Assembly (NCBI GenBank): GCA_029263175.1
Contig: JAJCXZ010000077.1
Coordinates: 1-64,000, forward strand
Length of the DNA stretch: 64,000 bases
Reading direction: 5' to 3'
DNA from: Acidimicrobiales bacterium
GTDB taxonomy: Bacteria; Actinomycetota; Acidimicrobiia; Acidimicrobiales; Aldehydirespiratoraceae
Part shown: positions 29,306 to 31,683 of the stretch, piece after piece
How the letters are laid out: each line of letters opens with the position of its first letter
How positions within the stretch are numbered: the stretch's first letter is position 1
Program-made: the position numbers and the translations under genes
The notes under the pieces: generated by a model
What the model was told of the DNA's origin: nothing
Databases searched by the model: none
What the model saw: only the letters and a program-made list of their open reading frames with translations

Positions 29306-30073
29306 CTATACCAGCGGCTCAGGGCGAGCGAAGAGCTGGCCCTGCGCCCAAGCGATGTTGCAGGAGATCACGGCCGCCAGCTGGGCTGGTCGTTCGATGG
29401 TCTCGGCCACCACCTGGTAGCCGTCAGCGTGGAGGTCGTCGGCACTGAGCTCGAGCAGGTCGCGGCCGACAGGGTCGTCGCACACCGATGTCAGGGCACT
29501 GTCGAGCTTGACGAATGATCCGGTGGGCAACCAGTCGGTGAGAGTTCGATTCTTCGATGCCGGTCCGCGGTGGTCATCGAGTGCAACCTGGCTGCCGCTG
29601 TCGAGGAGCGGTCCGAGTGTGTCGACCGCGGCGCGGCAGCCATCCGGTCCGATTCGGTCGGGGATCTCGAAGATCAGTTCGCTCGGATGGATCTGCAGGC
29701 CCAACATGATCAACTCGATGTCGGTGACGAGGCTGGCGTGTTCGAGCTGGGTGGGGTACAGGTTGAGTGAGAGGCGCCCGCCGCGGGATCGACGCCCCGA
29801 TGTTGCCCAGGCGTGGAGCGAGAGTTCGGTTGCCCGGGTGGTGCACTCATGGATGGTGCCGGTCTCTTCGGCGATGGGGAGCGCCATTGCGGCGGCCCAG
29901 ACCTCTCCGGGGGACCGCCGCCAGCGCATCAGTGCCTCGGTCGCAAAGATGGTGCCGTCGGTTGTGGAGTGAATGTCGTGGGCGTGGATCTCGAGTTGAT
30001 CCCAGCTTGTCCTGAACGCGTCGTGGAGTTCGCTGGTGGTGGTCTCTTCGAGATCTCGCCGCATCATTCGCAT
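29306..30073 (-). CDS. EAL domain protein (c-di-GMP phosphodiesterase family, divergent)
   Basis: 255 residues, a stand-alone EAL domain without sensor or GGDEF. Counterparts of the catalytic set can be read: TEALMRWR (EAL), LSLNLYP (Asn), LIFEIPD (Glu), VALDDHRG (DD), FVKLDSAL (Lys), VAETIER (Glu) and AQGQLFARPEPL (Gln). The DDFGxG loop is altered to DDHRGP, so activity is uncertain. It would hydrolyse or bind cyclic di-GMP in the cytoplasm. It is convergent with dnaB, ending on the tandem repeat. Confidence 0.82.
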   Translation of the reverse strand: MRMMRRDLEETTTSELHDAFRTSWDQLEIHAHDIHSTTDGTIFATEALMRWRRSPGEVWAAAMALPIAEETGTIHECTTRATELSLHAWATSGRRSRGGRLSLNLYPTQLEHASLVTDIELIMLGLQIHPSELIFEIPDRIGPDGCRAAVDTLGPLLDSGSQVALDDHRGPASKNRTLTDWLPTGSFVKLDSALTSVCDDPVGRDLLELSADDLHADGYQVVAETIERPAQLAAVISCNIAWAQGQLFARPEPLV

Positions 30074-30174: not shown

Positions 30175-30843
30175 ATGGAGCGGGGATTGTATGTTGCTTT
30201 GGGCCTGGTGGTCGGTGTGGTGGCCGTGCTTGGGTTCTATGCATGGCGCCTCGACGACGGCTCGATCCCCGAGGCACCCACCACCAACTTTCCGGCGATT
30301 GCCCACGAGACCAGCGCAGCTACGGCGCTGATCGCTGATTGGGAGCGGTGGCGAACCGCGACGTTTGTGTCGGAAGGTACATGGACCCGCACATTGGACG
30401 ACGTGGAGGTCCCGCTGTCCGGTTCGCTCTACACGGCGCAGCAACCACCTCGTCGCTTGGTCCTCCGCTTGGGGACGACGATCGAGCAGATCGACGATCA
30501 GAGAGCGACGTGCGATTCGTCCAACGACGATGTGATCGCGCCGGCGTGTGTTGCAGGGTCCGGCCTGTCCTACGACGAACGAGTCGTGGCGGAGATGGAA
30601 TTGGTCCGGGAGTATGTCACGGCCGAGACGCGGTTGTACGACGTGCGGCTCGACGACAAGGGGTGCTACCAGCTCGAGATCCGGGTGTCACGGCTTGCGT
30701 CTCCATGGGGGCGGTGGGCCGAGTTCTGCTTCGATGCCGAGTCGGGGGCCCTACGACGAGCGACGGTTCGTCGACAGACAGCGACTGACGTAGAGGTGGT
30801 CATCTCGATTCGCACCGAGGTGACCGACGCCGACTTCGGCTGA
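30175..30843 (+). CDS. Membrane-anchored protein of unknown function
   Basis: 222 residues: an N-terminal membrane anchor (GLYVALGLVVGVVAVLGFYAW) and a ~195-residue extracytoplasmic domain. The domain has four cysteines (TCDSSNDD, APACVAG, GCYQLEI, FCFDAESG) that could form two disulfides. No family is recognised. The beta-rich pattern resembles lipoprotein-like sensor domains, but this is only an impression. It is followed at once by the first structured repeat. Confidence 0.7.
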   Translation: MERGLYVALGLVVGVVAVLGFYAWRLDDGSIPEAPTTNFPAIAHETSAATALIADWERWRTATFVSEGTWTRTLDDVEVPLSGSLYTAQQPPRRLVLRLGTTIEQIDDQRATCDSSNDDVIAPACVAGSGLSYDERVVAEMELVREYVTAETRLYDVRLDDKGCYQLEIRVSRLASPWGRWAEFCFDAESGALRRATVRRQTATDVEVVISIRTEVTDADFG

Positions 30844-30855
30844 AGCGACGAGGTT

Positions 30856-30974
30856 GAGAGGGGCGGGAGCAGAACCAGTGCGCCAGCACCCTGGAAAGCG
30901 CTGGTGGCGATGCGTTGGAGGGAGTGTTCTCCTCCCGCCGTCCTCTCGGAGTGAGCGGCGGCGAAACCGCTCAC
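30856..30974. repeat. Structured repeat, copy 1
   Basis: An outer stem is made by GAGAG-GGCGGGAG-c-AGAAC (30856-30875) pairing with GTTCT-c-CTCCCGCC-CCTCTC (30926-30947). It encloses a 50-nt core (30876-30925) shared with two further copies; the core's A run is three long. A second hairpin follows: 8-bp arms GTGAGCGG/CCGCTCAC (30951-30974) with loop CGGCGAAA. Orientation of any transcript is unknown. Confidence 0.85.
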
Positions 30975-31067
30975 GGGGGAGCCATCGGCGGTGATGGAGA
31001 GTCCTGGATCAATGGTCGTGCAAACGGGTCATACGGCCCGGTTGGGCCGGGCAGATGGTCCGCGGCG

Positions 31068-31289
31068 ATGATGGAGGCCGTGTTTCTCGGTGAAGATCTT
31101 CTTGCATGGCTCGTGCTCGCGATCGGCGCGGCGATGGCGTTCGGCAATGCGTTGGCGTTGGTGCGTCCGCCGGAACAGCAGCGTCACGACGATGACCTGA
31201 CGGCAGCGCCCAAGGGCCGCAGCATCGTTTTCATCGTCGTGGGCTCGATCGCAAGCGTGTGGGCCCTGGCGAGCCTGCTGTCGGGCTGA
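31068..31289 (+). CDS. Small two-helix membrane protein
   Basis: 73 residues from ATG 31068: a first membrane segment LLAWLVLAIGAAMAFGNALAL, a charged loop RPPEQQRHDDDLTAAPKGR, and a second segment SIVFIVVGSIASVWALASLL. A second ATG follows immediately (31071). No family is recognised. It lies between copies 1 and 2 of the structured repeat. Coding status is supported by topology and codon pattern only. Confidence 0.65.
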   Translation: MMEAVFLGEDLLAWLVLAIGAAMAFGNALALVRPPEQQRHDDDLTAAPKGRSIVFIVVGSIASVWALASLLSG

Positions 31290-31307
31290 GCTGGGTAAAG
31301 AGCGGAC

Positions 31308-31420
31308 GAGAGTCGAACGAGTGCGCCAGCACCCTGGAAAAGCGCTGGTGGCGATGCGTTGGAAGGAGTGTTCGACTCCCGCCGCCCTTTGTGGCCGGTG
31401 GGGGCGAATCCGCCGGCCAC
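31308..31420. repeat. Structured repeat, copy 2
   Basis: Outer stem GAGTCGAAC (31310-31318) with GTTCGACTC (31370-31378), a perfect 9 bp. The core is 31319-31369 with an A run of four. The second hairpin is GTGGCCGG...CCGGCCAC (31391-31420), which extends to 11 pairs including one T-G pair, with loop GGGCGAAT. Confidence 0.85.
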
Positions 31421-31454
31421 TACATCTATCGGCGTGTGGGGCCCCGGCTTGAGC

Positions 31455-31584
31455 GAGAGAGTGAGAGTGGGTAGGAGTCGAACGAGTGCGCCAGCACCCT
31501 GGAAAAAGCGCTGGTGGCGATGCGTTGGAGGGAGTGTTCAACCCCCACCCTTGCTCTCTTGACCGGCGGGGGCGAATCCGCCGG
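31455..31584. repeat. Structured repeat, copy 3
   Basis: The outer stem is GGAGTCGAAC (31474-31483) with GTTCAACCCC (31536-31545), two mismatches. It is extended outward by GGGT/ACCC and GAGAG/CTCTC. The core is 31484-31535 with an A run of five. The second hairpin is CCGGCGG/CCGCCGG (31563-31584) with loop GGGCGAAT. Copies 2 and 3 fill most of the 394-bp gap before the next gene (31290-31683); the remainder (31585-31683) shows nothing recognisable. Confidence 0.85.
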
Positions 31585-31683
31585 CTGAATGTTGTATCGA
31601 CCACGGCCGTACGACCTTTACCAAAGGGCCCGATTCAGGTCGTTCGGCGGGACCGAACCGAGAAATAGGTCCCTGCGGCCCGG

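Follow-up and report, generated by a model that had tools for sequence, protein, structure and literature searches.

An uncatalogued structured small RNA of the Acidimicrobiales with a putative WhiG/sigma-28-type promoter and an anti-Shine-Dalgarno-like strip

On comparative sequence evidence, three repeats on the minus strand of the window (the whole 64-kb stretch of DNA analysed here) are genes of an uncatalogued structured small RNA, which is known in one order, the Acidimicrobiales. We consider it reasonably probable that this is a family of free-standing sRNAs belonging to a WhiG surface and type IV pilus regulon, and that an anti-Shine-Dalgarno-like strip in the RNA represses translation.

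The original prediction described three copies with complementary flanks around a shared core of about 50 nt, in which an A run measures 3, 4 and 5 bases, each followed by a second hairpin whose loop is (C/G)GGCGAA(A/T); on the plus strand, to which these descriptions refer, we saw all of these elements in the three units (Table 1). The window's own genome contains exactly three copies, all clustered at 30852-31589. On the minus strand, one fold is common to all three copies, with the z-scores given in Table 1, whereas the plus strand gave z-scores of -2.5, -3.8 and +0.04 for copies 1 to 3, so that the plus strand of copy 3 folds no better than its shuffles. When 32 homologues were read on the minus strand, their helix cells contained 194 G-U combinations versus only 13 A-C combinations. 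Since A-C cells are what G-U pairs would look like were the other strand the RNA, the wobble counts settle the strand, and by this count the functional molecule is the minus-strand RNA; an RNA from the plus strand is ruled out by both the fold z-scores and the G-U and A-C counts. Seen from the minus strand, what was described as a second hairpin lies at the 5' end of this one RNA, and the run of A bases corresponds to a run of U at the apical hairpin. The proposal that RNA or single-stranded DNA structure is under selection is upheld by covariation across the order and narrows to RNA on the minus strand.

Table 1. Features of the RNA locus in the window. The three copies are training sequences of the covariance model R1, and their own R1 scores are thus scores on training data.
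Feature	Position	Strand	Basis
RNA gene copy 1	30852..30978, 5' end 30978	-	model R1 118.5 bits, E 1.5e-22; fold z -4.0
RNA gene copy 2	31295..31421, 5' end 31421	-	model R1 128.4 bits, E 1.1e-24; fold z -5.7
RNA gene copy 3	31460..31589, 5' end 31589	-	model R1 126.4 bits, E 2.8e-24; fold z -4.0
Putative sigma-28/WhiG-type promoter, copy 1, ATCCAG-N14-GCCGATG, 10/13	30983..31009	-	motif score
Putative sigma-28/WhiG-type promoter, copy 2, CTCAAG-N14-GCCGATA, 13/13	31427..31453	-	motif score
Putative sigma-28/WhiG-type promoter, copy 3, GTAAAG-N14-GTCGATA, 10/13	31595..31621	-	motif score
P1 5' hairpin, copy 1, loop with UUCGCC	30951..30974	-	fold and covariation
P1 5' hairpin, copy 2	31391..31420	-	fold and covariation
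P1 5' hairpin, copy 3	31562..31585	-	fold and covariation
Strip ACUCCCUCCAACGCAUCGCC, copy 1, internal loop; proposed base-pairing region, anti-Shine-Dalgarno-like	30906..30925	-	nearly invariant, unpaired positions
Strip ACUCCUUCCAACGCAUCGCC, copy 2, one change	31350..31369	-	alignment
Strip, copy 3	31516..31535	-	alignment
Two-helix membrane protein gene, ~69-73 aa	31080..31289	+	alternative in-frame starts 31068/31071

The RNA begins with a 5' hairpin (P1, 9 pairs), followed by a long stem (P2, 15 pairs) that leads through an asymmetric internal loop to an apical hairpin (P3, 9 pairs), with helix sizes taken from a structure-blind MAFFT alignment of 32 units. The internal loop holds CUCCCUCCA(N)ACGCAUCGCCA, and copy 1 comprises the P1 hairpin, the P2 stem, the internal loop with this conserved strip and the P3 hairpin. 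In the structure-blind alignment, 94.7% of helix cells were paired and 79 cells carried double changes versus 21 in shuffles (0/500), a count that is also far above every slid control. When 63 units from 50 loci were aligned to R1, a fitted alignment that hence leans towards the structure of the model, 94.6% of stem cells were paired, double-change cells numbered 266 versus 72 in shuffles (0/500), and both-side changes were found in 30 of 33 pairs, including all 9 pairs of P1 and now also pairs of P3. RNAalifold recovered essentially the same three helices from the 63-unit alignment. Together, the structure, strand and gene conservation of the RNA are well supported by these alignments.

A coding sequence was ruled out, as loop length varies among the copies by single bases and their stems covary, and a tRNA-like element was ruled out with ARAGORN, which found no tRNA in the window. 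Units that stand in tandem, are nearly identical and contain inverted repeats could also be a mobile or palindromic DNA repeat (REP/MITE-like) that is selected as DNA. Such repeats are dispersed through a genome, but here the only three copies in the window's genome are clustered at one locus, which is conserved across families, the G-U pairing is strand-specific and a promoter stands at fixed spacing, and we find this explanation extremely improbable.

The search for homologues in related genomes that was suggested at the outset yielded many, with stems that covary. Of 61 related genomes, 32 gave a BLAST match to the unit at E <= 0.1, 22 of them at E < 1e-5, and two or three copies often stand in tandem; the unit is therefore no chance repeat. 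Across the class, 14 of 296 genomes sampled were RNA-positive, all within the Acidimicrobiales, and none of the RNA was found outside this order among 149 genomes sampled across the phylum, in a search whose first-look filter limits sensitivity. A pattern search of named genomes returned 64 stretches, 28 of which were confirmed by the model, while the others look like chance; the 28 confirmed contigs are mostly labelled Acidimicrobiales, Microthrixaceae or Actinobacteria, and one is a Candidatus Microthrix MAG. MAGs labelled Acidobacteria or Actinomyces (L148, L175 and L151) also bear the RNA and are probably mislabelled Acidimicrobiales. In a genome of the same genus, a degenerate third unit (L003:2060-2295) keeps the promoter and the P1 hairpin and has lost the core, which suggests that copies decay. 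The original prediction could name no known RNA family, and no Rfam family matched in gathering or permissive mode; we also found no paper that describes it.

On the RNA strand, a motif of the form CTCAAG-N14/15-GCCGATA precedes the units, and its -10 element ends 3-7 nt before the 5' end of the RNA. The promoter score was at least 9/13 at fixed spacing in 58 of 62 units, and at least 10 in 30 of 35 units versus about 1% of shuffles. Promoters of the flagellar/WhiG class, which serve the RsiG-(c-di-GMP)-WhiG regulon of Streptomyces and Rubrobacter, have the consensus -35 TAAA and -10 GCCGATAA with about 15 nt between them (PMC8325347). The RNA promoter consensus is of this same class except that it has TCAA for TAAA, with TCAA-N15/16-GCCGATA in most units, and the RNA genes are probably switched on by WhiG/sigma-28-type sigma factors. 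Strong terminator-like hairpins, some of them followed by T runs, lie just downstream of 12-16 of 62 units; an intrinsic terminator scan downstream of the window's own three copies found none. Since no conserved gene in the same orientation follows the RNA, we take the RNA to be a free-standing gene, and a cis element for a downstream gene was ruled out on this ground.

The RNA locus is usually found downstream of rpsF-ssb-rpsR-rplI-dnaB, beside a gene for a small membrane protein, and in one family (f20) this gene stands beside the RNA though the replication genes are not adjacent. The copies had been said to frame a two-helix membrane protein. This protein, for which no Pfam or NCBIfam family matched, is a conserved neighbour, with its gene in 15 of 16 extended RNA loci and often divergently transcribed, but homologues are present in 52 of 61 relatives, including most RNA-less genomes, and it is no proven partner; we read the gene as a stable neighbour of the RNA. 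The RNA might instead be a cis element or an antisense antitoxin (type I toxin-antitoxin-like) for this gene, an idea that suits their proximity and the ability of the window's strip to pair with GGCGATGATGGAGG at the start of the gene and with GGCAATGCGTTGG inside it. However, we found no conserved complementarity to the adjacent membrane-protein mRNA, as neither site is conserved even in the same genus; most RNA-less genomes have the gene, and copies 2 and 3 lie downstream of it with their own promoters. This role is therefore very unlikely, and the membrane-protein mRNA was ruled out as a base-pairing target because its complementarity to the RNA is not conserved.

Two other genes of the region were recorded in the window. 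A 222-aa protein encoded at 30175-30843 (+) has an N-terminal membrane-anchor-like segment, is conserved in this place, downstream of dnaB, in much of the order and belongs to no Pfam or NCBIfam family. An EAL-domain (c-di-GMP phosphodiesterase-type) gene at 29306-30073 (-), beside dnaB and the RNA locus, is of interest because WhiG is under c-di-GMP control in other actinobacteria.

Two FliA/WhiG paralogues are common among the relatives. One is WhiG, which scores 377 bits against a cut-off of 343 in the NCBIfam WhiG equivalog and has 6pfj/6pfv as its best solved relatives; its gene lies near dprA and rpsB-tsf, the same arrangement as in Streptomyces. The second paralogue, encoded close to gyrBA, has a score of 200 bits in the general family; one example, at L062:9791-10741 (+), is about 316 aa long with N- and C-terminal extensions. 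Among the 61 relatives, when the RNA was called by BLAST and the model, it was found in 27 of 41 genomes with intact WhiG or the second paralogue versus 0 of 20 without, as raw counts that ignore phylogeny. The second paralogue shows the tightest co-occurrence with the RNA in the window's family; in family f1, it is present in 16/16 RNA-positive and 2/21 RNA-negative genomes, again as raw counts with phylogeny ignored. Both sigma genes are present in G014 and G034, where the RNA is absent from the locus, and in 12 other sigma-positive genomes no RNA was detected, with limited power of detection at distance. Since three RNA-positive genomes (G009, G025 and G036) have no WhiG and one (G059) has no second paralogue, no single sigma factor is implicated. 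In G027, which is counted among the 20 genomes without an intact sigma gene, both FliA/WhiG-type sigma matches are interrupted by TAG (C2:140181-140852 and C5:114985-115413), and the RNA and the membrane-protein gene were both undetected; this is a possible case of natural co-loss.

The promoter motif is also found before other genes. It scores 10-11/13 at a distance of about 65-77 nt before the estimated start of pilM in the window's genome (G000) and in four members of its family, G010, G011, G012 and G018, and G051 has a 13/13 match just before pilM. Exact matches in relatives precede genes for HD-domain phosphodiesterase-like, exopolysaccharide-type sugar transferase, S-layer-homology (SLH) and secreted proteins. 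In Rubrobacter, the WhiG regulon contains type IV pilus and c-di-GMP genes (PMC8325347), and the predicted promoter bearers here, with type IV pilus and c-di-GMP enzyme genes among them, mirror that regulon. Unlike in the RsiG-WhiG regulon, for which the literature we searched gave no sRNA member, the most conserved promoter bearer here is the RNA gene. A flagellar regulon was ruled out, as the window's genome and nearly all RNA-positive genomes have no flagellin. Altogether, the putative sigma-28-type promoter, the conserved locus, the sigma co-occurrence and the motif before pilM and other surface genes are well supported by these genome comparisons.

Outside the stems, two stretches alone are nearly invariant in the 63-unit alignment: UCGCC in the P1 loop, and CUCCCUCCA(N)ACGCAUCGCCA on the 5' side of the internal loop; some distant units were found by a pattern containing the strip, and its conservation is to be judged on BLAST- and model-found members. 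RNAalifold on this alignment gave CUCCCUCCA a mean unpaired probability of 0.93, and the ACGCAUCGCC half of the strip was moderately unpaired (0.61). In the most diverged of the BLAST- and model-found members (61, 30 and 15.6 bits), which came to light next to this same gene for the membrane protein, the remaining strip drifts, but CCCUCC, the promoter and the architecture are kept. A near-invariant strip of about 20 nt together with an invariant UCGCC loop exceeds the usual need of a short seed, and multiple copies would suit a sponge, so that the strip and the P1 loop might bind a protein or a small ligand, as sponge or scaffold, with no base-pairing to mRNA. The most persistent part, CCCUCC, is however the classic complement of ribosome-binding sites, and no candidate protein was found; we regard such binding as unlikely.

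Returning to translational repression by a free-standing sRNA, we infer transcription, the choice between the two sigma paralogues, the base-pairing mechanism and the targets as parts of the following model. The three tandem noncoding sRNA genes of the minus strand, which each measure about 130 nt when counted from the promoter-defined 5' end, would be transcribed individually by RNA polymerase with a WhiG/sigma-28-type sigma factor. Through its fold, the RNA would present CUCCCUCCA(N)ACGCAUCGCC as a fixed strip within the internal loop and act in trans, with CCCUCC pairing with GGAGGG-type Shine-Dalgarno sequences and the remaining strip and the C-rich P1 loop helping this pairing. Translation of target mRNAs would then be blocked during the WhiG surface/type IV pilus/c-di-GMP programme. 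The mycobacterial sRNA 6C/B11, likewise an actinobacterial sRNA with C-rich single-stranded loops, pairs with ribosome-binding sites via those loops (PMC10470900). Unlike 6C, which has cytosine runs in two loops, the RNA described here has a UUCGCC loop and an internal-loop strip, CUCCCUCC...GCAUCGCC; it also comes from different taxa, has a sigma-28/WhiG-type promoter and lacks an Rfam match, 6C at gathering score included. A search of the window's own genome for near-complete strip complements (<=3 mismatches) gave 6 versus 3 in the control, barely above it, and identified no target, and the places outside the RNA that match TGGAGGGAGT exactly bear no resemblance to translation starts. A comparison of strip pairing energy between translation starts and gene bodies was discarded as circular because the starts had been chosen by Shine-Dalgarno match.

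The lack of an mRNA target in that strip-complement search would also suit a 6S-like RNA, in which stem and bubble imitate an open promoter and bind RNA polymerase, or its core as in the case of Ms1, so that the enzyme would be damped or kept in store during WhiG activity. Such polymerase-binding RNAs, scr3559 and Ms1, occur in Actinobacteria (PMC8539372), and the long closing stem, internal bubble and apical hairpin are broadly similar in outline to the closing stem, large central bubble and terminal stem-loop of 6S. However, no Rfam family matched, 6S included, the RNA is shorter (about 130 nt versus 192 nt for scr3559) and restricted to a single order, its bubble is asymmetric and conserved on one strand only, as a C-rich strip, and it has an extra conserved 5' hairpin. 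We judge a 6S-like function to be distinctly unlikely. A broader and equally doubtful speculation is that the RNA would be a WhiG-dependent RNA arm of the c-di-GMP/WhiG switch, acting as a global anti-Shine-Dalgarno decoy or as an RNA polymerase-binding RNA; if true, it would reshape translation or transcription on a global scale while surface or pilus development is under way.

With these findings, an order for which we found no published sRNA gains a structured RNA family that is uncatalogued and shows strong covariation. If the favoured reading, an sRNA of the WhiG surface and type IV pilus regulon that represses translation, is confirmed, this would be the first small RNA known to us in a c-di-GMP/WhiG regulon. 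The family offers an entry point to the role of WhiG in bacteria that mostly have no flagellin, where pilM and genes for c-di-GMP turnover and the cell surface are marked by this class of promoter.
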